This document shows, in pieces, positions 3,538 through 37,560 of a stretch of 37,560 nucleotides of DNA (its first letter is position 1; each line of letters opens with the position of its first letter). The stretch is taken from positions 1 to 37,560 of IMG/VR virus record IMGVR_UViG_3300049811_000189; one strand, 5' to 3'. A model generated the notes under the pieces. It worked only from the letters and a program-made list of their open reading frames with translations. It did no database searches and had not been told where the DNA came from. A program made the position numbers and the translations under genes. The DNA comes from a virus.

Positions 3538-4191
3538 TCAGTTGCGGACGGGCTTGCCGCCGATGGCGGTCGGCAGCGCCCAGCGGGCACCCGTCAGGAC
3601 GGGCGCGGACTGCGCCGGGGCGATCACCCCGTTCTGGGCCTGACCCACCGTGCGGATGAGGACGGTCGGGTTCTGCGCGTTGTCGGCGAAGGTGGGCGTT
3701 CCGAGGGTGTTCAGGTCATCCGGGATGGCCGCGGCGGTCCACCGGAAGGCGCGCGGCTGGGTATTGGCGGCGGAGGCGGCCGGCAGGGTGTCCAGCGGCG
3801 TCCTCGCCCGCGCGTCGGCGGCCCGGAGGGTCGGGGCGGTCGTGCCCGCGATGAGGCGCACGAAGCCCCAATAGACGGCCGCCCGGAGGGCCGTGTTCGG
3901 GACGGCCACGAGGCGGTTGCCGACCGTGTTGAGCTGGCCCGCCGGGAGGATGACGCGGCCCACGATGGGTCCGAAGGCGGAACCCGGACCGTCCTCGGCC
4001 AGGACCACCTCCACGGCCGCGTCGGCGGACCCCGCGGTCGTCACGGCCACGCCGATGGCGTCGATGTTGATGGATACGGGGAGCTGGAACGGGATGGCGG
4101 TCACCTGACCGGCCACGATCAGAAGCGTTCCGGTGCCCGGAGCGAAGGCGATGCGGCCCGGGGCAAGGTCAGCGTTAAGGGGGATGGTCAT
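3538..4191 (-). CDS. Beta-rich virion-associated protein, function unknown
   Basis: The 217-residue product starts MTIPLNADLAPGRIAFAPG and continues with many alternating beta-type segments (TGTLLIVAGQVTAIPFQLPV; RLVAVPNTALRAAVYWGFV). No catalytic motif is visible. It follows the holin candidate by 7 bp and is the first of three such proteins before the terminase genes. A capsid decoration, tail accessory or receptor-related role is possible, but none is shown by the sequence. Confidence 0.75.
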   Translation of the reverse strand: MTIPLNADLAPGRIAFAPGTGTLLIVAGQVTAIPFQLPVSINIDAIGVAVTTAGSADAAVEVVLAEDGPGSAFGPIVGRVILPAGQLNTVGNRLVAVPNTALRAAVYWGFVRLIAGTTAPTLRAADARARTPLDTLPAASAANTQPRAFRWTAAAIPDDLNTLGTPTFADNAQNPTVLIRTVGQAQNGVIAPAQSAPVLTGARWALPTAIGGKPVRN

Positions 4192-29515: not shown

Positions 29516-32086
29516 TTAGGCGAAGAAATAATCGCTCTCCCGGACCCCGGAGACATCCAGGCTGCCCTTCGCCGGGGGCTTGGGGAGCTTGTCCACGAGC
29601 TTCTCGGAGAGCTGGTCCTGCATGTCGAAGTAGAACATCAGCACGGGGTCGTGGTCCTGGTAGAGGCCGATGAACGACTCCTTGAGACACCCGACCATCA
29701 AGTCCACCTTCGCGGCCGGGGCGCCGTAGCTGTCGTGGACGAGGGCGAAGTCCTCCAGCCCGTTGTCCACCGCCATGTTGACGAACATCCGCAGGGCGCA
29801 GGCGTCCATGGAGTGGACCCAGTTGGGGGCCACGCCCTGCTGCTGCGCTCGGCGGTCCACCTTGTTGGTGTATGTGGCGAGCGTCAGGCGGATGACGCTG
29901 CCGTCCACGATGGTCTTGATCCGGGCTTGGTCAGTGTCCCGGTAAGCCTGCTGCACGAGGAACCCGTCCGGGGTCGTCCAGGTAATCGGAAGGTCCAGGG
30001 CGGCGACCAGACGGGCGCACTCCTGGAGCCACGCCATGCCGTCTCGGGCGGCCCGGACAGTCTCCCCGATGGCCTGCCAGACGAGAGGCTGGAGCCAGAG
30101 GGAGGCGTTGAAGAAGGCCCGCCTCCGCTCCACCATGTCCACCGCATCGGTGAAGCTGACTGCACCGGACTTGGCCGCACGCTCCCCGATGGCGTCCTCC
30201 AGGAAGCCCCGGGAGGAGAAGTTGGTAGAGCCGTAGGGTAGGGTCATCACCGACCGCTTGGTGATCTTGCGGTCGATGCCGAACTCCAGCCACCGCTCGG
30301 CCATCTCCCGGGGGTTGATGCCGCGCTCCGCCCAGAAGGCGAGGTGCTTGTTCAGGTCGTGAACGATCCCGGTATCGGGACCGTCCGGGCGCACGAACTC
30401 CCGGACCAGGGTGAGGGTCCGCTCCGCCACCTTCGCATAGATGTCGCTCGGCTTGTCGCCGGGGACGAGGTTGACGGCAGCGCCACCCTCGGGGTCCCGG
30501 AGGGCGGCGGAGTAGTGCTGAAGCCCGTTGCATGTCCCGTCCAGGGCCACGGGAAGGGACGACACGAAACCGAAGCCGTGCCGCTTGAACGCTGCATACT
30601 CGAAACACCACGCGAGGAACTGAAAGGGGGCGTCCGCCTCCGACCAGAAGGAGAAGGCCGGCCCCCAGGGGTCCGCGTCCACGGCCAGGACCGCCTCCTC
30701 ATTCCGCTGGACCCACTCGATGCGGTCTTGGAGGCTGACCTTGTCCACCCCGTAGTGGTTCGCCCCGGATATCATCAGCCACCCGGCGGCCCGCTCGTCG
30801 GCGATGGGGTAGCCGCGGGCGAACGTCAGGAGGCCCTTCACGTAGTCCGGCCCCTGCGGGTTGAGCAGGATCGGCATGGGGTAGATGCGCCCCCGGAAGT
30901 CCATCTGGTGGGGGAAGTAGATGGCCGGGTATTCGGAGAAGCGGCGAGCCAGCCGCGTTGCCTGCACCGTCTGCACCCGCTTGGCGAGGTTCTTCCGGTT
31001 CTCCTCATAGGCCCGACCGGCGGCCCGGCGCCAATGCAGTTTCAATTCCGGGTCATGGTCTGCCCCCGGAGGGAACGGGGGGACATCCACCTCCCGCCCG
31101 GGGAGGCCGGCGACGCTGCGCTCGGTATTCAGGCACTCCTCCAGCACCTCCAGCACCCGCACGTTGATCCGCCAGGGGGTGGCCTGGACGGCGTTCACGG
31201 CGGACAGGACGGCCTCGGCCCCGGTCGCGTCCATCTCCTCCAGGGTCCCCTCGGCCCACGTCTTGACCAGCCACAGGCGGCGGAACAGGCCCGAGTGATA
31301 GCCCCCCGTCCGGGTGGACGACCAGGGCTTTGGAGGGACGATGGTCGGCATGAACAGGGGCGACATGTGGGAGGCCGCCTCCCTGACCTCGGTCATCCTC
31401 TCGCGGGCTTCCTCCCGGACGACGAGGCGAAGGGCCTCCCTCCGGGTGCCCCGGTCGGTGGTGGCGAAGTCGAACAGGCCGGTCACCGCCCGCACCGTCT
31501 CCAGAAGCTTCATGCCGACCAGGAACCGGGTGCGCTCGCCCCACTCGCCGGCGACCTCCGCCTTGCGGGACATCCGCCGGGCGATGGACCGCCGCTGCGT
31601 CGTGCCCCGGTGCTTGGACAGCTCGGCCATGGTCACGGCGAACAGATCGGGCCGCGCCTTCTTGAAGGCCCGCATCCACAGCTCCGTCTCCACGGACGCG
31701 CCGATGCTCACGGCGACGGCCTGCACCCGCGGGTAGTCCTCCTCCCGGTTGGCCAGGAAGTCCCCGAGGCACGCGCGGAGGGCGAGGTAGGCGGCCTCCT
31801 CCGCCCCGCACTCCTCGATATAGGGCGCGGCGGTGTGTCGGCGCCCCGGGCCTCCCGTCGCGGCCTCCTTCAGGAACGCGGCCACGGCGGCGGTCACGGG
31901 GTCCACCATGCGGCGGAGGAAGTAGCGGCCCCCGGTGTTCAGCTCCCCCCGCTTGTCCGCCTTCTCCTCCTGGCGCTGGAACCGGGAGAGGCCCCCATCC
32001 AACATTTCCATCTCCAGCTTGAACTGCTTGACCATCATCTCCCCACTGTTCGGGGGGAAGTCGTAGGTCGTGGAACCGTCCGGCAT
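29516..32086 (-). CDS. Single-subunit DNA-dependent RNA polymerase (T7 gp1-like)
   Basis: The 856-residue product (T7: 883) transcribes the middle and late phage genes. Palm motif A is VALDGTCNGLQHYSAALRD, finger motif B is KRSVMTLPYGSTNFSSRGF, and motif C is FALVHDSYGAPA, preceded by NWVHSMDACALRMFV. The C-terminal FFA matches the conserved FA end of the family. GRIYPMPILLNPQGPDYVKG is another conserved part. The ATG follows AAGGAGGACGAGCG. It has a copy of its own candidate promoter (P4) upstream, suggesting autogenous activation. Palindrome copy 14 codes for GAVSFT in a region variable among relatives. Confidence 0.97.
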   Translation of the reverse strand: MPDGSTTYDFPPNSGEMMVKQFKLEMEMLDGGLSRFQRQEEKADKRGELNTGGRYFLRRMVDPVTAAVAAFLKEAATGGPGRRHTAAPYIEECGAEEAAYLALRACLGDFLANREEDYPRVQAVAVSIGASVETELWMRAFKKARPDLFAVTMAELSKHRGTTQRRSIARRMSRKAEVAGEWGERTRFLVGMKLLETVRAVTGLFDFATTDRGTRREALRLVVREEARERMTEVREAASHMSPLFMPTIVPPKPWSSTRTGGYHSGLFRRLWLVKTWAEGTLEEMDATGAEAVLSAVNAVQATPWRINVRVLEVLEECLNTERSVAGLPGREVDVPPFPPGADHDPELKLHWRRAAGRAYEENRKNLAKRVQTVQATRLARRFSEYPAIYFPHQMDFRGRIYPMPILLNPQGPDYVKGLLTFARGYPIADERAAGWLMISGANHYGVDKVSLQDRIEWVQRNEEAVLAVDADPWGPAFSFWSEADAPFQFLAWCFEYAAFKRHGFGFVSSLPVALDGTCNGLQHYSAALRDPEGGAAVNLVPGDKPSDIYAKVAERTLTLVREFVRPDGPDTGIVHDLNKHLAFWAERGINPREMAERWLEFGIDRKITKRSVMTLPYGSTNFSSRGFLEDAIGERAAKSGAVSFTDAVDMVERRRAFFNASLWLQPLVWQAIGETVRAARDGMAWLQECARLVAALDLPITWTTPDGFLVQQAYRDTDQARIKTIVDGSVIRLTLATYTNKVDRRAQQQGVAPNWVHSMDACALRMFVNMAVDNGLEDFALVHDSYGAPAAKVDLMVGCLKESFIGLYQDHDPVLMFYFDMQDQLSEKLVDKLPKPPAKGSLDVSGVRESDYFFA
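30149..30166 (-). repeat. 18-bp palindrome family, copy 14
   Basis: The minus strand reads GGTGCAGTCAGCTTCACC within the RNA polymerase gene, read as GAVSFT. Confidence 0.85.
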
Positions 32087-32350
32087 CGCTCGTCCTCCTT
32101 AAGGGAACTATCAAACCCCGTTCGTAGGTGGCCCCTAAATAGGCCCTTGACCCCGTCACATGGGGCGCTCGTGTGTCGTGACGCGGGCGGGTCCGTCACA
32201 AGCCGCCCTCTCCGCGCGTCACATCGGCCCGCTTCCGGGGACCCTCTCGGCCCCCTCTCGTCGCCCCGGGAGCGGCCTGCCGCCTGGGGTTATTGCCTTG
32301 TGCCCGTCTCCGGGCCTGATTACTTGGGCTTTTAAGTCGCTTACTGTGGT
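32087..32350. other. Non-coding region between RNA polymerase and tRNA-Leu
   Basis: These 264 bases hold promoter P4 (32124-32140) and no gene. Three direct copies of CGTCACA lie at 32154-32160, 32194-32200 and 32217-32223, with a reverse-oriented relative (TCGTGACG) near 32176-32183. Such repeats next to a tRNA and an integrase gene could be integrase arm-binding sites. The 11-mer at 32214-32224 is repeated in inverse orientation at 23-33. Confidence 0.5.
32124..32140 (-). promoter_or_regulatory. Phage RNA polymerase promoter candidate P4 (upstream of its own gene)
   Basis: The minus strand reads ATTTAGGGGCCACCTACGAA, the closest copy to the SP6 promoter ATTTAGGTGACACTATAGAA. It lies about 38 bp upstream of the RNA polymerase ATG. 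Confidence 0.78.
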
Positions 32351-32434
32351 TGTCCGGGACGGGACTTGAACCCGTATGCCCTTGTTGGGCCTCGACTTTT
32401 AAGGTCGGCGCGTCTGCCTTTCCGCCACCCGGAC
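32351..32434 (-). tRNA. tRNA-Leu(UAA), possible attP core
   Basis: The 84-base minus-strand sequence folds as a complete type II tRNA: acceptor stem GTCCGGG/CCCGGAC with discriminator A, a Leu-type D arm, anticodon loop CTTAAAA giving anticodon UAA, long variable arm GCCC-AACAA-GGGC, and T arm ACGGG-TTCAAGT-CCCGT. The next bases read ACCA, so a CCA end is not encoded in exact register. It lies downstream of the integrase gene. TTA codons are rare in this GC-rich genome, so an attachment-site role is at least as plausible as decoding. Confidence 0.93.
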
Positions 32435-32487
32435 GGGGCGCTCGGGGCCTATGTGGCGCAGCCCCGGCGTGGGAGGGATGCAAGGGA

Positions 32488-32814
32488 TTATACGTCCCTT
32501 TGCGGTGCAGTCAGCTTCACCTTGGCGAGCAGCCGAAGGGCCGCCGAGCGGGCTATGAGGGGGTAGTCGTCCTCCCGCAGGGCATAGAGGGAGGACGTGG
32601 ACTGCCCCGTAAGGTCCTTCAAGAGGCCCTTATGGGGGTGAGAGATGACATCCCAGTCCTCCCGGACCACCGTCGCCAGCTCGTCATAGCACCCATCGGA
32701 CAGGATCGTCTCGTCCCTGTGGTAGTAGAGGAAGGCGGACATCAGGACCCAGGACACGGCCCGATCCCCTCCGCCCTCCTCCAGACCGGCCCTCGCCATG
32801 TGGTCGAGGGTCAC
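32488..32814 (-). CDS. Small protein with a ligase Ia-like motif
   Basis: The 108-residue product contains SAFLYYHRDETILSDGCYDE, which resembles the Y-Y...D...ISD..YD element of domain Ia of NAD-dependent DNA ligases. No adenylation domain follows, so it is not a ligase; similar short proteins occur in many phages without known role. The GTG start overlaps the previous stop as GTGA. Palindrome copy 15 forms its C-terminus (VKLTAPQRDV). Confidence 0.7.
   Translation of the reverse strand: MTLDHMARAGLEEGGGDRAVSWVLMSAFLYYHRDETILSDGCYDELATVVREDWDVISHPHKGLLKDLTGQSTSSLYALREDDYPLIARSAALRLLAKVKLTAPQRDV
32504..32521 (+). repeat. 18-bp palindrome family, copy 15
   Basis: GGTGCAGTCAGCTTCACC close to the end of the 32488-32814 gene and about 70 bp from the tRNA-Leu, read as VKLTAP. 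Confidence 0.85.
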
Positions 32815-33059
32815 TCAACGCCCCGCACAGCGATGGTCATGAGCCGCTGCTCGGCCGTCTCCAGCGCCTCGGTCAGCTCGTTCCGGAGGACGCGAAGGCG
32901 TCTCGCGCCGTCCAGGCAGGCGGCCTTTCGGGACGCGAACAGAAGCCCCTCGAACTCCAGGACGTGCTTCGGGGGGTGAGTGCGGCGGTTCCAACGGACA
33001 ACCGAGGCATACACCTCGGACTCTCGGTTGATGCCGCAGTTTAGGACCCACTCGGCCAT
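32811..33059 (-). CDS. Small protein of unknown function
   Basis: The 82-residue product begins MAEWVLNCGINRESEVYASV and has a basic and acidic helical second half (LDGARRLRVLRNELTEALET). The ATG at 33059 follows GAGGAGAG and is preferred over a longer reading. It lies between the integrase-linked small gene and the ligase Ia-like gene. No family is recognised. Confidence 0.7.
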   Translation of the reverse strand: MAEWVLNCGINRESEVYASVVRWNRRTHPPKHVLEFEGLLFASRKAACLDGARRLRVLRNELTEALETAEQRLMTIAVRGVE

Positions 33060-33075
33060 GTTGTCTCTCCTCTGC

Positions 33076-33219
33076 TCAGCCAGGGGTATTCCAGGGGGCG
33101 CCATCGACGCGGCCAGCGGGGACGGTGGGCAGAGCGTCCGTGGTGGTCCTCCGGGCGGCCTTCATCAGGTCGTCCATACACGCCATTTCGGCGTCCAGGA
33201 TGACCTGGTCCTTCATCAT
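33076..33219 (-). CDS. Short protein overlapping the integrase 3' end
   Basis: The 47-residue product begins MMKDQVILDAEMACMDDLMK and ends in a Pro/Gly-rich tail. The ribosome site AGAGGAGC lies within the last codons of the integrase gene and the start overlaps the integrase stop. The short size and acidic helix are compatible with a small regulator or excisionase partner, but nothing specific can be seen. Confidence 0.55.
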   Translation of the reverse strand: MMKDQVILDAEMACMDDLMKAARRTTTDALPTVPAGRVDGAPWNTPG

Positions 33220-34316
33220 GCTGCTCCTCTGTTCATCGCCGCGCACGCATCCCGAAGGTTCTCGGGGGCCACGTTCGCATAGCGCATGGTTACCTGGATG
33301 TTCTTGTGCCCCATCCACTTCTGGATCACCGGGATGGGGACGTTCCGCTGCACCATGCGGCTTGCGCATGTGTGCCGGCAGATATAGGGAACGAAGTTGG
33401 GATCCTTCGACATGCCCATGAGGAACCGCGCCCGCTCCCACGGACTGCGGAGCCAGAAGTTGTCGTAGGGGAACAGCCGACCATTCGGTGCAGTCAGCTT
33501 CACCCGTGCGGCGATGATCCCGGCGACCCGGTCGGTCATGTAAATCGTTCGCTCCTCCCCGTTCTTCGTCCGCTTCACGGCCTGCTTCAGGTGCGCGTGG
33601 ACCCCCTGCCACACCCGGATCATCCCCAGGGCGTCCTGGCCGGGGAGGACCACGTCCTTGGGGGTCAGCGCCCATAGCTCGGAGGGGCGGAGGCCGGTGT
33701 CTATCAGCACCTCCACCACCTCCCGAACATCCTCTCGGCCCCACTGACGGAACAGGGAGAGAAGCATCTCCTCCTCCTCAGGCGCGAGCCATCGGAGGCG
33801 GAGGTTGTGCACCGACACTCGCTCGATGCGGGGCATCTTGGCAAGCCCGCCGCGGTCGTAGGCGTAGCGCAGGGACTTGGACAGGACGGAGAGGTGCCCG
33901 TTGATGGTGGACCCCGCCTTTCCATGCGCCTTCATAGACTCGATCAGGGTGTCCACGGCGTCGGTGTCCATGCGGGACAGCGGGAAGTCGCGGCCGAAGT
34001 GTGCCAGGACCCGGCCCATCATCTGCCAGTTTTTCGAGGCCCATACGGTGCCCCGGTAGTAGCGGTTGAAGGCCCTCTCGACGGCGTCCCCGAGGGTGCG
34101 GGGCGTCCCCTTGGTCCCGTCCCCGGGCGTGTCCGCGGAAGGCTCAGGAGCGGCTCCTCGGCGCCTCCGGTCGGGCGTGCGGGAAGCCTTCATCTCCTCC
34201 CGCGTCTCCGCCTCCCACGCCTCCGCGGCCTCCCTGGTGGGGAAGTCGCGGCGCTTGCGTCGGCCGCCGACGATCACGTCCGCTTGCCATGCGCTGCCGC
34301 GCTCTCTCACTGGCAT
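33216..34316 (-). CDS. int: Tyrosine site-specific integrase
   Basis: The 366-residue product would catalyse integration into and excision from the host chromosome. The N-terminus (SAWQADVIVGGRRKRRDFPT; REAAEAWEAE) is the arm-binding AP2-like domain, followed by a SAM-like core-binding domain. The catalytic domain has box I DTGLRPSELWALT with the first Arg, box II YICRHTCASRMVQRN with His-x-x-Arg, GHKNIQVTMRYA with the nucleophilic Tyr, and a conserved WMGH. Palindrome copy 16 codes for VKLTAP in a loop before LFPYDNFW. It follows the frameshifted regulator gene by 1 bp. Integrases are uncommon in T7-like phages but known, for example in cyanophage P-SSP7. Confidence 0.95.
   Translation of the reverse strand: MPVRERGSAWQADVIVGGRRKRRDFPTREAAEAWEAETREEMKASRTPDRRRRGAAPEPSADTPGDGTKGTPRTLGDAVERAFNRYYRGTVWASKNWQMMGRVLAHFGRDFPLSRMDTDAVDTLIESMKAHGKAGSTINGHLSVLSKSLRYAYDRGGLAKMPRIERVSVHNLRLRWLAPEEEEMLLSLFRQWGREDVREVVEVLIDTGLRPSELWALTPKDVVLPGQDALGMIRVWQGVHAHLKQAVKRTKNGEERTIYMTDRVAGIIAARVKLTAPNGRLFPYDNFWLRSPWERARFLMGMSKDPNFVPYICRHTCASRMVQRNVPIPVIQKWMGHKNIQVTMRYANVAPENLRDACAAMNRGAA
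33487..33504 (+). repeat. 18-bp palindrome family, copy 16
   Basis: GGTGCAGTCAGCTTCACC inside the integrase gene, read as VKLTAP. Confidence 0.85.
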
Positions 34317-34317
34317 C

Positions 34318-34553
34318 TCAGCCTCCGATGATGTTGTCCAGGGAAGTCAGCACGCGCCGCCCCCGGGGGGTTATCCACGCCTCGCTCTCGCGCCGGTCCA
34401 GGCGTCCCTCGCGCACCTCGACAAGGCCCAGGCCGGGCTTCCCGTTAAGGCCCCGGTCAGAGAGCTTGTCGAACGTCCGCTGGGCCGCCGACTTGGGGCC
34501 TGATCTAGCTGCGCCACAATGCTCGCAGCCCCCTTTGCATACACGCTCTGCAT
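34318..34553 (-). pseudogene. MarR-like winged-helix regulator with an apparent frameshift
   Basis: A gene starts at the ATG at 34553 with a perfect AGGAGG site and reads MQSVYAKGAASIVAQLDQAP. The frame then turns into unlikely Ser/Arg sequence. A -1 shift near 34494-34500 continues as KSAAQRTFDKLSDRGL, GKPGLGLVEVREGRLDRRES and EAWITPRGRRVLTSL, ending with a stop one base before the integrase start. The joined 78-residue protein has a winged-helix pattern with a MarR-type D-R-R wing and T-x-x-G-R end, strong third-position GC, and tight packing against int. The shifted frame has no start codon of its own. This may be a mutation, an assembly error, or recoding; no canonical slippery site is visible. 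Confidence 0.7.
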
Positions 34554-34599
34554 GTTCTGCTCCTCCTGCGCAGCACGACGCCGCGCACGGGAGACATGT

Positions 34600-34634
34600 T
34601 TCATTTGATGCTCACAGCGTCAAGATCAAATGAA
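34600..34634. promoter_or_regulatory. AT-rich inverted repeat, operator-like
   Basis: TTCATTTGAT (34600-34609) and ATCAAATGAA (34625-34634) form a perfect 10-bp inverted repeat with a 15-bp spacer. The spacer contains a second, imperfect pair (TTGATGC and GCGTCAA). On the minus strand TTGACG (34618-34623) could be a -35 element, though no good -10 follows. It lies about 50 bp upstream of the winged-helix gene start and is unusually AT-rich for this genome, as expected of a regulated host-type promoter. Confidence 0.6.
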
Positions 34635-34649
34635 CATCTGCAACACGAA

Positions 34650-34683
34650 AAAGGGCCAGGGGCATCTCCACCCCTGGCCCTTT
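34650..34683 (-). terminator. Strong Rho-independent terminator closing the early block
   Basis: AAAGGGCCAGGGG and CCCCTGGCCCTTT form a perfect 13-bp stem with an 8-base loop, and on the minus strand the stem runs into TTTTTCG. It separates the early small genes from the regulator-integrase-polymerase part, so the latter needs its own promoter or read-through. Confidence 0.95.
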
Positions 34684-34707
34684 GGCCCTCGATCCTTCCC
34701 GCCGGGT

Positions 34708-34944
34708 TCAGTAATCGCCCGGCCGCAGGACCGTGATGTGGCCGTTGTCGGCCTTGACCCAGACCTCGCCTGCCTCTTCGGTCTCATACGAGCCGAGGGC
34801 GTTGTCGGGATCGGCATCGTTCAACGCCGCATCGTCGGCGTCCACAGCCTCGCCCCAATCGCCCCGGCGGAACCGGGCGACAACCTCCTCGATGATACGC
34901 GGGGCAACCTCGTCCCTGATGGTGGCCGTGATGGTGATGTCCAT
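34708..34944 (-). CDS. Acidic early protein of unknown function
   Basis: The 78-residue product begins MDITITATIRDEVAPRIIEE and has an acidic middle (AVDADDAALNDADPDNALG) and a short beta-type end (EVWVKADNGHITVLRPGDY). Small acidic early proteins of T7-like phages often bind host enzymes, but no specific match is seen. The ATG follows GGAGA. It is the last gene before the early terminator. Confidence 0.75.
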   Translation of the reverse strand: MDITITATIRDEVAPRIIEEVVARFRRGDWGEAVDADDAALNDADPDNALGSYETEEAGEVWVKADNGHITVLRPGDY

Positions 34945-35023
34945 GTCCTAGTCTCCATGTGGCGATGCACATAGGCATCTCAGGTGTGTTGGCTCGGCTG
35001 CCTCGGCAACCAGAGGGTGTGAA

Positions 35024-35239
35024 TTACATGACGGCGGGGTCGCCCCGCAAGAGGGACTGGAGAACGGCGGCGCGAGTTGTCGCCTCCTTCTTCAACCCTA
35101 GATTGTAGGCGATGCGGACAGCCCGTAGGACGGCCTCCCCGTCCGCCTCGGTGCTGCTCAGGAGAACCTTCATGCGGCCGGCGGGACCCTCTCGGGTCAC
35201 GATTTCCCAGCCGCCAGCGGTCTGGCGGAAGTCGAACAT
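35024..35239 (-). CDS. Small early protein of unknown function
   Basis: The 71-residue product begins MFDFRQTAGGWEIVTREGPA and ends with a helical stretch (GEAVLRAVRIAYNLGLKKEA). The start at 35239 is chosen for its GGAGAG ribosome site; the longer reading runs through palindrome copy 17. That palindrome sits directly upstream of the ribosome site. Confidence 0.75.
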   Translation of the reverse strand: MFDFRQTAGGWEIVTREGPAGRMKVLLSSTEADGEAVLRAVRIAYNLGLKKEATTRAAVLQSLLRGDPAVM

Positions 35240-35256
35240 GCGTTTCTCTCCGGTGT

Positions 35257-35284
35257 GGAAAGGTGCAGTCGGCTGCACCTTTCC
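35257..35284. repeat. 18-bp palindrome copy 17 in an extended perfect palindrome
   Basis: GGTGCAGTCGGCTGCACC (35262-35279) is flanked by GGAAA and TTTCC-type arms, giving GGAAAGGTGCAG and CTGCACCTTTCC as perfect 12-bp arms around a 4-base centre. It is intergenic and lies about 20 bp upstream of the start of the 35024-35239 gene. Confidence 0.9.
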
Positions 35285-35293
35285 AGGTTTCGT

Positions 35294-35380
35294 TCAGGCC
35301 AGCCCGAGGTAGGCCAGGACCAGCCACGCGAAGGCGCCCCAGAAGGCGATGCCTACCAGGGCGTCCTCGACGGACCTCAC
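35294..35380 (-). CDS. Very short membrane peptide, GTG start
   Basis: The 28-residue product starts at a GTG overlapping the previous stop as GTGA and reads RSVEDALVGIAFWGAFAW followed by LVLAYLGLA. The second part is one hydrophobic helix long enough to span a membrane. It is too short for a standard ORF cut-off. Support is the coupling overlap and the clear membrane segment. Confidence 0.5.
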   Translation of the reverse strand: MRSVEDALVGIAFWGAFAWLVLAYLGLA

Positions 35381-35664
35381 TCCACGGTCACCGTGATGGT
35401 TCCCCGCTCGGGGTTCCAGGTGAAGGGCGTCTTGATGGTCAGGGTCATGATGAACCGCCGGCCCCCGCCCCAGATCGGCTCGTCCTTCAGGCGCATCTCC
35501 ATGACGGTGTCGCTGCCCCCGGTGAACACCTCGGCCTCGAACACCCCGTCCTTCATCTTGAAGGGGATATCCCAGCCGGTGTTCGGCTCCAGCCCCACGA
35601 GCAGGCGGTCGCCATACTCGTCTCGGGCAATCTCCACGGTGTCGCGGAGGTTCGGCTTCTTCAT
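35377..35664 (-). CDS. Early protein of unknown function, beta-rich
   Basis: The 95-residue product alternates short strands (TVEIARDEYGDRLLVGLEP; GVFEAEVFTGGSDTVMEMRL; RRFIMTLTIKTPFTW) and ends ERGTITVTVE, suggesting an all-beta domain. The family is not recognised. GAGGAG precedes the ATG. Confidence 0.75.
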   Translation of the reverse strand: MKKPNLRDTVEIARDEYGDRLLVGLEPNTGWDIPFKMKDGVFEAEVFTGGSDTVMEMRLKDEPIWGGGRRFIMTLTIKTPFTWNPERGTITVTVE

Positions 35665-35667
35665 CTC

Positions 35668-35898
35668 TCAGTCTCCTCGGAAAGCGGAGCGGCAGGGCAG
35701 GGAGCAGAAGAGGTAGATGTCCTCAGCGTAGGCGCCCGAGTCGCTCTCGGTGATGTAGCGGAACAGGCGGCCCCCTCTCCGAGTCCCTCCGCACCACGAA
35801 CAGGTCCCGCCCGGGGGAGGCCGAACGCGCGCCCGGGTCAGGGTCGTCCGGGCGAACGGGTCGCGCCGGATCGTCACAGTCGAGCCTGTCTCGCTCAT
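35668..35898 (-). CDS. Small zinc-ribbon-like early protein
   Basis: The 76-residue product has two Cys pairs, CSWC near residues 33-36 and CSLPC near residues 65-69, separated by a mostly beta segment, as in zinc-ribbon or MYM-type small domains. The N-terminal 30 residues are basic. It overlaps the preceding gene by ATGA. Function is unknown; a nucleic acid or protein contact is likely for such domains. Confidence 0.7.
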   Translation of the reverse strand: MSETGSTVTIRRDPFARTTLTRARVRPPPGGTCSWCGGTRRGGRLFRYITESDSGAYAEDIYLFCSLPCRSAFRGD

Positions 35899-36068
35899 CG
35901 GACCACCCTCAGCACCACATCGAGTTCCTCCAGGGGACCCCCGAGGGCGTTGTCCAGCCCGAGGCGCTTCACGGCTCGGACCACAGCCTCGCAGGCCACG
36001 GCACGGGCGCCGGGGTCCGCGATGTTCCTGACCTCCAGGGCCAGGGCGCGGTAGTGCTTCCGGGTCAT
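35895..36068 (-). CDS. Small helical early protein
   Basis: The 57-residue product begins MTRKHYRALALEVRNIADPG and is helical (ARAVACEAVVRAVKRLGLD). Its ATG overlaps the previous stop as ATGA and its stop overlaps the next start the same way, so a longer reading starting at 36110 is not preferred. The function is unknown. Confidence 0.7.
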   Translation of the reverse strand: MTRKHYRALALEVRNIADPGARAVACEAVVRAVKRLGLDNALGGPLEELDVVLRVVR

Positions 36069-36391
36069 GACCGGTCCTCCTTCTCGCGCTGCCGGCGCTG
36101 GCGCTCGCACAGGACGCGGCTGGCATACACGAGGACCACCGCCACGCGGGCGTGCGGGTTCCCCCGCCGGGCCGACGCGATGGCGTTATCCAGGGCGTGC
36201 GCGTCGCTGCTCAGGGCGGGCGGCTCGAAGCCGACCTCTTCGACCCAGTCCTCCGGACAGTCCAGGCGCTGCACCTCTATGGTCCCGCTCCCGGTCCCGT
36301 AGAACAGGGACCACCCCTCGGCGATGGCCTGGGCACGGGCGGGGCTGTCCAGCCACCGGCCGTATGCGGCAATGAGCTTTTCGGACAACAT
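36065..36391 (-). CDS. Early protein of unknown function
   Basis: The 108-residue product has an N-terminal helix (LSEKLIAAYGRWLDSPARAQ), a short beta middle (GSGTIEVQRLDCPEDWVEE) and a basic C-terminus (ERQRRQREKEDRS). No family is recognised. GGAGGA precedes the ATG. Its leader contains a CGAGGG/CCCTCG stem-loop and palindrome copy 18, an arrangement repeated upstream of the first gene at 37351-37500. Confidence 0.75.
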   Translation of the reverse strand: MLSEKLIAAYGRWLDSPARAQAIAEGWSLFYGTGSGTIEVQRLDCPEDWVEEVGFEPPALSSDAHALDNAIASARRGNPHARVAVVLVYASRVLCERQRRQREKEDRS

Positions 36392-36407
36392 CTCTCATCC
36401 TCCGATG

Positions 36408-36424
36408 CGAGGGCAAATCCCTCG
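36408..36424 (-). promoter_or_regulatory. Leader stem-loop next to palindrome copy 18
   Basis: CGAGGG (36408-36413) and CCCTCG (36419-36424) form a 6-bp stem with a 5-base loop. It lies between palindrome copy 18 and the GGAGGA ribosome site of the 36065-36391 gene. A near-identical arrangement is at 37518-37534. Confidence 0.6.
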
Positions 36425-36431
36425 GGGCACC

Positions 36432-36449
36432 GGTGCAGTCAGCTTCACC
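36432..36449 (+). repeat. 18-bp palindrome family, copy 18
   Basis: GGTGCAGTCAGCTTCACC in an intergenic leader. ACC and GGT next to it extend the arms to ACCGGTG and CACCGGT. Confidence 0.88.
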
Positions 36450-36465
36450 GGTGTCCGGAAGGGGC

Positions 36466-36483
36466 GGCGGGATTGCTCCCGCC
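36466..36483 (-). terminator. Hairpin after the 36492-36701 gene
   Basis: GGCGGGA and TCCCGCC form a perfect 7-bp stem with a 4-base loop directly after the stop codon. No T run follows on the minus strand, so it may be an attenuator or RNA-stabilising hairpin rather than a terminator. Confidence 0.4.
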
Positions 36484-36491
36484 ACCGGGCC

Positions 36492-36701
36492 TCACGCCGC
36501 GACAAGGGTCAGGTAGGCGACCCCGACCGCGGCCTCTCGGGTGCGGTAGGACGCGGCGCTCCAGGGCAGGACCGCCCCATCGGGGAACTCCAGCGCCCAG
36601 CGCCAGCCCGCCGCCCGGGCGCACCACCCCACCCGGATGGCAGATGCCGCCTCACGCCCCAGGCGCTTGCGGAACTCGGCAGTCACGTATGGCTCACACA
36701 T
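36492..36701 (-). CDS. Small early protein of unknown function
   Basis: The 69-residue product begins MCEPYVTAEFRKRLGREAAS and has a basic, Trp-containing middle (VGWCARAAGWRWALEFPDG). It overlaps the end of the preceding gene by 8 bp. No family is recognised. Confidence 0.7.
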   Translation of the reverse strand: MCEPYVTAEFRKRLGREAASAIRVGWCARAAGWRWALEFPDGAVLPWSAASYRTREAAVGVAYLTLVAA

Positions 36702-37083
36702 CGCTCTCGCTCCTGTCTGGGTAGTGGCCGGGCCACAGGCCGACGGCCCGATGGTTCTCAGTCGGAAGGCAGGCAGGAGGGACCCGCGCGGCCTTCCACA
36801 GCGCCCGCTCTCGCTTGGCGTCCGAGTTGCACGCGGCCTCGATCACTCGGGGTATCGCCAGTCCCCGCCACAGGGGCAGGGCCTTGCCTTGCGCGACCAG
36901 GGACACGGCGCGATGGCGACCCCGCTCGTAGGCCATGATGATGAACCGGCAGGACTGCCGATCCATCCAGCCGTAGTCCATCGGAAGGCCCTTCCGGACC
37001 TCGTTCCACGCCTTGCGACGCGCCTCCAGCATGGGGGCAGGCGACTTGGCGACGGGCCTCCCGCCCCGGGATGTCCCGTTCAT
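36694..37083 (-). CDS. Early protein of unknown function
   Basis: The 129-residue product has a basic N-terminus (MNGTSRGGRPVAKSPAPMLE) and a central helical segment (SCRFIIMAYERGRHRAVSLV). AGGAGGAGCC precedes the ATG, a strong site. No known T7 early protein is matched. Confidence 0.75.
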   Translation of the reverse strand: MNGTSRGGRPVAKSPAPMLEARRKAWNEVRKGLPMDYGWMDRQSCRFIIMAYERGRHRAVSLVAQGKALPLWRGLAIPRVIEAACNSDAKRERALWKAARVPPACLPTENHRAVGLWPGHYPDRSESDV

Positions 37084-37092
37084 CGGCTCCTC

Positions 37093-37347
37093 CTAGCGGC
37101 CTGCGCGGCCTGCCCGCCGCCGCCGCTTCTCGGCTGCGTCCAGGCCCGGGTAGGTGTGCCACGTAACGGCACCGCTCTCGGAAATCTCGACGGTCAGGGA
37201 GGGCGGCGCCCCCGCTGCCTCGATGACTTGCCAGTAGGTTCGCCGATAGACCGCGAAGGGGGTGGCATGGGCTCGTGCCAGGAGGGCGGCGTCTTCCATG
37301 GCCCGCTCCAGGGTGCGATAGGCGCACCCGGGGGTGATGTAGCGCAT
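37093..37347 (-). CDS. Small early protein of unknown function
   Basis: The 84-residue product begins MRYITPGCAYRTLERAMEDA, has an alpha/beta middle (TPFAVYRRTYWQVIEAAG; SLTVEISESGAVTWHTY) and a basic tail. GGAGGG precedes the ATG, placed within the end of the preceding gene region. Unknown function. Confidence 0.75.
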   Translation of the reverse strand: MRYITPGCAYRTLERAMEDAALLARAHATPFAVYRRTYWQVIEAAGAPPSLTVEISESGAVTWHTYPGLDAAEKRRRRAGRAGR

Positions 37348-37350
37348 GGC

Positions 37351-37500
37351 TCAGCCCTCCACCGTCACGCGCACCGCGCCGACGATGTGACCGAACTCGC
37401 GGGCGAGGCGGCGGGCCTCTCCCCAGGTGCGGCCGGCCACCAGGGTTACGCGCGTGGCGCCATCCTTCAGGGTGGCGGTTACCTTGTAATGCTCAGGCAT
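37351..37500 (-). CDS. First early gene, small protein of unknown function
   Basis: The 49-residue product reads MPEHYKVTATLKDGATRVTL, then VAGRTWGEARRLAREFGHIV, and ends AVRVTVEG, a compact beta-alpha-beta pattern. GGAGGA precedes the ATG. It is the first gene visible in the direction of transcription. Its leader carries a stem-loop and palindrome copy 19. Confidence 0.7.
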   Translation of the reverse strand: MPEHYKVTATLKDGATRVTLVAGRTWGEARRLAREFGHIVGAVRVTVEG

Positions 37501-37517
37501 GTCTCAGTCCTCCAATG

Positions 37518-37534
37518 CGAGGGAACACCCCTCG
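37518..37534 (-). promoter_or_regulatory. Leader stem-loop next to palindrome copy 19
   Basis: CGAGGG (37518-37523) and CCCTCG (37529-37534) form a 6-bp stem with a 5-base loop between palindrome copy 19 and the ribosome site of the 37351-37500 gene, matching 36408-36424. Confidence 0.6.
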
Positions 37535-37541
37535 GGCGACG

Positions 37542-37559
37542 GGTGAAGCTGACTGCACC
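37542..37559 (-). repeat. 18-bp palindrome family, copy 19 (window edge)
   Basis: The minus strand reads GGTGCAGTCAGCTTCACC, one base from the window end, upstream of the first early gene. The early promoter itself is therefore outside this end, probably across the circular junction in 1-537. Confidence 0.88.
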
Positions 37560-37560
37560 C

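Follow-up and report, generated by a model that had tools for sequence, protein, structure and literature searches.

Layout of the locus and gene content of the phage

The sequence analysed here is a 37,560-base virus record from a metagenome assembly, which we refer to as the window. It contains genes for a T7-type RNA polymerase, primase/helicase, DNA polymerase, exonuclease, head-tail adaptor, major head protein, tail protein, internal virion protein, tail fibre, large terminase and amidase, and judged by its sequence the window is a temperate-type Autographiviridae-like phage. A tandem array with a unit near GCACACGCTCAGGCGCACGC (~5 copies, window ~50-150) sits near the terminase end of the record. 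Of the early genes tested, none had a match among known regulator families.

The coordinates of the features are collected in Table 1; all features of the regulator remnant locus lie on the minus strand. Two reading frames are open across 34553-34371. The first (frame 1) starts at an ATG and reads MQSVYAKGAASIVAQLDQAP..., leaving the regulator's frame beyond 34502. The second, which reads KSAAQRTFDKLSDRGL...ITPRGRRVLTSLDNIIGG up to a TGA at 34320-34318 and encodes the winged-helix part, is one frame off; it is open upstream to 34611, and no ATG, GTG or TTG start giving a listed ORF was found in it. The integrase ATG at 34316 lies one base beyond this TGA. This split-frame layout next to the integrase, with an AGGAGG site before the first ORF and a startless winged-helix part one frame away, had been described in the original prediction and was found again here, as was the GGGG at 34495-34498 (CCCC on the coding strand). 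The prediction had also held that the length of 236 bp fits one missing or extra base; since 236 is 3 x 78 + 2, one missing base (or two extra ones) fits, and one extra base does not.

Codon-position GC was calculated for both frames. The C-terminal remnant, 58 codons without a stop, gave 0.71/0.52/0.88 compared with 0.65/0.49/0.86 for the integrase, which is the pattern of real genes, and frame 1 past 34496 gave 0.50/0.88/0.71 and was non-coding in look.

Table 1. Features of the regulator locus and its surroundings (window coordinates)
Feature	Position	Strand	Evidence or remark
C-terminal regulator remnant: recognition helix alpha-4, wing, alpha-5	34318..34494	-	profile, phrog_9665, BLASTP, GC3 0.88; startless
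Frame-change interval	34495..34502	-	holds CCCC run 34498-34495; frame-1 homology ends 34503, other-frame homology starts 34494
alpha-3 remnant GAASIVAQLD	34503..34532	-	other frame, inside ORF from ATG 34553; ungapped homologue match
Frame-1 ORF	34371..34553	-	ATG 34553-34551, stop ending 34371; translates to 60 aa
Shine-Dalgarno AGGAGG	34562..34567	-	8 nt before ATG 34553; near-ideal ribosome-binding site
Operator-like perfect 10-bp inverted repeat TTCATTTGAT-N15-ATCAAATGAA	34600..34634	.	A+T-rich leader, 43% GC
Intrinsic-terminator-like hairpin	34650..34683	-	divides remnant/integrase unit from upstream early genes
Tyrosine integrase, 366 aa, uninterrupted	33216..34316	-	PF00589 E 6.5e-17; phrog_1 E 5e-55; 58% identical to that of G001
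tRNA-Leu(UAA)	32351..32434	-	between integrase and RNA polymerase; probable attachment region
T7-type single-subunit RNA polymerase	29516..32086	-	phrog_414 E 1.4e-237; proposed MarR target in relatives
Palindromes (18 bp each)	287, 3033, 3506, 5705, 8423, 13503, 14928, 16925, 19808, 21980, 24753, 26345, 27948, 29286, 30149, 32504, 33487, 35262, 36432, 37542		dispersed over the window

The inverted repeat of the leader is unique within the window, and the genome around it is G+C-rich. When its two arms were searched for with spacers of 10-20, they were found in 10 IMG/VR stretches, none of which belonged to a related phage.

Between the integrase and the polymerase, the whole tRNA-Leu(UAA) is followed by GACTTAAAA (window 32330-32434), and the end of the record of the relative G001 (L060:1-260) adjoins tRNA-Leu sequence with the same motif. 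This stretch is the probable attachment region, and integration would therefore separate the integrase from the polymerase gene; the records of several relatives are cut between these two genes, as prophages would be. The window passes without a break from the integrase over tRNA-Leu to the RNA polymerase and hence does not have the arrangement of an integrated phage.

Homology of the C-terminal segment to MarR-type regulators

We built a family profile of 112 positions from 19 homologous regulators. The winged-helix segment at 34494-34321 alone scored 50.3 bits against it (E ~5e-15, profile positions 54-110), and a profile of the C-terminal half gave 58.3 bits (E 2.7e-17) at the same place, and no second strong hit turned up in any of the window's six frames. 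The remnant also matched phrog_9665, annotated as 'transcriptional regulator' in PHROGs, at positions 61-116 of 118 (E 2.2e-7), and BLASTP found 51% identity over 59 positions to the regulator of G001 (E 4e-18). These results bear out the MarR-type identity that had been proposed for the regulator, and at the level of sequence the winged-helix segment is truly related to the MarR-like regulators that temperate T7-like phages carry beside their integrase. Pfam searches of the read-through product and of the remnant returned no family, a nucleotide search of the region against phage records gave no match, and an exact 20-mer of the remnant had no match in IMG/VR, where a near-identical copy for comparison was not found.

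Set against the phrog_9665 family, the C-terminal part matches the profile, and the position agrees as well, directly upstream of the integrase with the T7-type RNA polymerase downstream. The complete fold (alpha-1/alpha-2, HTH, wing and C-terminal helix) and the single ORF of that family are missing, with alpha-3 lying in a different frame from alpha-4 to alpha-5.

About 30 homologues were examined, and all were single-frame and nearly all full-length. In related loci, 14 single-frame matches spanned most of the profile; the match in L007 had an internal gap. A MarR-like or HTH regulator, or a homologue of it, was found directly before the integrase in LUZ100, Pasto, pelagiphages, and Synechococcus and Mesorhizobium phages, and likewise in several unannotated viral contigs and bacterial contigs. 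The comparison with related phages, named in the original prediction as a check, thus came out in its favour, with intact, single-frame regulators at the same place. A profile of the intact homologues matched solved MarR chains (best E 3.1e-7), the G001 protein scored above the cut-off for PF12802 MarR_2, and its structure model matched MarR 3bpx best (prob 1.00) and also resembled MexR, SlyA and MepR. This resemblance to the MarR superfamily in sequence and fold holds for the intact relatives, not for the remnant itself.

The closest relative found was G001 (IMGVR_UViG_3300017655_000010), whose integrase is 58% and RNA polymerase 59% identical to those of the window, in a shared gene order. 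Its regulator (L060:1689-1348) is an intact protein of 113 aa, whereas that of the window is a split remnant, and its record is cut between integrase and polymerase in a prophage-like manner, whereas the window is continuous there. The MarR-like gp10 of LUZ100 (OP329100.1) likewise belongs to phrog_9665 and lies directly upstream of a tyrosine integrase, followed by a T7-type RNA polymerase, with a tRNA-Leu nearby; it is a complete 109-aa single-frame protein, whereas in the window alpha-1/alpha-2 are gone and the rest lies in two frames. From the report on LUZ100, gp10 is co-transcribed with the integrase and has been proposed as a repressor of the phage RNA polymerase (PMC10134795). Pelagiphages HTVC019P/022P/105P/109P (MarR family) and Rhizobium phage Pasto (HTH protein) share the regulator-integrase pair with the window, and their regulators are all intact and in a single frame, in contrast to the split one of the window. 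In another phage, G018, two different regulators of the family stand in tandem before the integrase (L008:2887-3201 and 3553-3885).

A frame break and the missing N-terminal helices

An AlphaFold2 model of the intact 113-aa G001 regulator (pLDDT 86) placed alpha-1 at residues 7-19, alpha-2 at 27-38, alpha-3 at 44-51 and alpha-4 at 55-65, and also showed a two-stranded wing and a C-terminal helix. From the places of alpha-3 and alpha-4 in this model, the part lost in the window is alpha-1/alpha-2, some 35-40 residues and the front third of the gene. A profile of the N-terminal half gave no match better than E 5.7 when all six frames of the window were searched. In leave-one-out tests the same profile recognised every family member at 13-69 bits, the weakest with only 13 bits, and the claim that alpha-1/alpha-2 are absent depends on this sensitivity. 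Frame 1 is closed by a stop shortly upstream of 34604, where the A+T-rich leader with its inverted repeat and the terminator are found.

To place alpha-3, the frame-1 peptide was compared only with the residues preceding the recognition helix in 30 homologues. GAASIVAQLD aligned without gaps and in the correct place with GSASIVKELD, the alpha-3 of L008:2887-3201 (score 34); the match is short, and its score was equalled by 2 of 2000 random genomic peptides and 4 of 2000 shuffled ones (about p 0.001). When the frames were joined, the BLASTP alignment continued through the junction (7e-11). Joined as 78 aa, the 20-residue N-terminal part did not raise the profile score above shuffles (359/1000), and a join one residue shorter gave 56.6 bits, equalled by 43 of 1000 shuffles and 2 of 1000 genomic peptides, which is weak evidence alone because two joins were tried. 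The assignment of alpha-3 relies on the position-restricted test, not on these joined-profile tests, and by that test helix alpha-3 very probably sits in frame 1. With alpha-3 there, the frame break falls within about 34502-34495, adjoining the CCCC run; homology ends at 34503 in one frame and resumes at 34494 in the other, which upholds a break at or beside the GGGG at 34495-34498.

Because alpha-1/alpha-2 are absent from all frames too, a single mis-called base is insufficient. A lesion of just one missing or extra base, as suggested earlier, is therefore not supported as the full explanation, and a sequencing error in GGGG would not make the gene intact either: corrected, it would still be without alpha-1/alpha-2 and of no intact known type.

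Probable decay of the regulator gene and its alternatives

With the front third of the gene missing and the remainder divided between two frames, it is probable that the phage lost its lysogeny regulator. The locus is likely to be a decayed, 5'-truncated and frameshifted remnant of a MarR-type lysogeny regulator directly before an intact integrase, and we prefer a decayed gene because it accounts for truncation and frameshift alike. Counting against decay, the coding character, the good ribosome-binding site and the leader with its operator-like inverted repeat are all kept; together they mean that the gene was damaged recently or that a product is still formed, and the intact coding composition of the remnant suggests recent damage. 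Ribosomes starting at ATG 34553 would make a 60-residue peptide without the MarR fold, so no MarR dimer would form and repression of the phage RNA polymerase would be lost. Maintenance of lysogeny via the regulator should then fail, and integration may still occur; translation of the integrase should stay unaffected because a GGAGG of its own lies where the regulator remnant ends. The window phage would thus probably be unable to maintain lysogeny by the MarR route, and it is possibly a naturally virulent derivative, a plausible consequence that the original prediction had raised too.

The C run might have been missequenced or misassembled, the true gene being a short single-frame regulator of ~77-78 residues from ATG 34553; this would agree with a break that falls at CCCC, with the near-ideal ribosome-binding site, with the joined BLASTP alignment and with the coding-like remnant. 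We consider it unlikely, since even the continuous protein would miss alpha-1/alpha-2, which the homologues examined carry, and no other gene compared with G001 in 37.5 kb is split between frames, which argues that indel errors are not frequent in the record. The record may also combine a true truncation with an error at the C run. The remnant might instead be part of a functional shortened variant, in which a new leader, promoter and start took the place of the 5' part and an unrecognised route leads to a truncated wing-helix protein, which might act as a dominant-negative or as a co-factor. The A+T-rich leader with its perfect 10-bp inverted repeat, the preceding terminator, the good Shine-Dalgarno and ATG and the uneroded remnant speak for such a variant, but no start codon lies in the remnant's frame, and as far as the fold allows us to predict, a recognition helix without alpha-1/alpha-2 would have no MarR-type dimer interface, which makes this explanation very unlikely.

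That the gene is recoded, with programmed -1 frameshifting joining the frames and setting the amount of regulator, had been raised in the original prediction and found little in its favour here. Both frames are open over 34553-34371 and an X_XXY_YYZ heptamer, A_AAG_GGG, occurs at 34536-34530, but it precedes the alpha-3 match in frame 1, which slipping there would discard. No slippery heptamer was found within 34502-34495, downstream RNA folding was no better than in shuffles (z +0.26), no homologue is split, and the joined product would still miss alpha-1/alpha-2; a heptamer at the frame change with a stimulatory structure, conserved in relatives, is therefore absent, and we regard recoding as highly improbable. 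The least credible explanation is that there was never a regulator and that a winged-helix-like peptide arose by chance in high-GC DNA. The empty Pfam result on the read-through product would suit it, but it is refuted by the homology of the C-terminal part (E ~5e-15), its 51% identity to the same-locus regulator of a relative and the shared gene order.

The decayed regulator offers a sequence-level case in which a temperate T7-like phage keeps its integrase gene but loses the proposed lysogeny regulator. Strictly lytic T7 relatives have been proposed to originate by steps of this kind (PMC10134795). A functional parallel to the window phage, as a candidate virulent one, is an unrelated phage of temperate lineage that has lost its lysogeny functions; that phage is described as a deletion derivative, whereas the window combines truncation and frameshift. 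The broken regulator gene itself is ordinary decay, and the palindromes dispersed over the genome are more unusual.

Dispersed palindromes in the window and its relatives

The palindrome GGTGMAGY-NN-RCTKCACC occurs in the window 14 times exactly and 20 times with at most one mismatch, and not once in Markov-shuffled sequences. The sites lie mostly inside genes, at about one per 1.9 kb. G001 carries ~25 palindromes, and eight of its sites in aligned coding sequence are no more than 4 bases from the homologous window site, despite widely diverged proteins. Overall, 9 of 21 sites lay within 40 bases of the homologous window site, where 0.9 were expected; one of the eight closest pairs involves a weak site. 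The regulator-carrying phage G018 has ~30 palindromes with the half-site GTGCAGT and a 1-base centre, and 11 were counted over 13 kb of the Chelatococcus prophage locus L069; the sites in both share the half-site and differ from those of the window in the spacer. No such palindrome family was found in G013, L070, L074 and L075. A pairing of regulators having a 'KSS.xR' recognition helix with GTGCAGT sites was considered and dropped, since L070, which has a helix of this type, lacks the sites.

The palindromes possibly form a genome-wide operator network. We put forward, as a doubtful proposal, that this clade of temperate T7-like phages may hold lysogeny via a stoperator-like network of ~20-30 palindromes with the half-site GTGMAG(Y), and that the window phage would be a natural virulent escape that lost the MarR regulator and kept the sites. 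The palindromes could make the regulator-operator control of these phages testable. One of them (32504-32521) overlaps the -35 of a TATAAT promoter, CTGACT-N16-TATAAT (32487-32521, minus strand), which faces the tRNA-Leu and the RNA polymerase gene and was the only sigma-70-like promoter found in 31900-37560.
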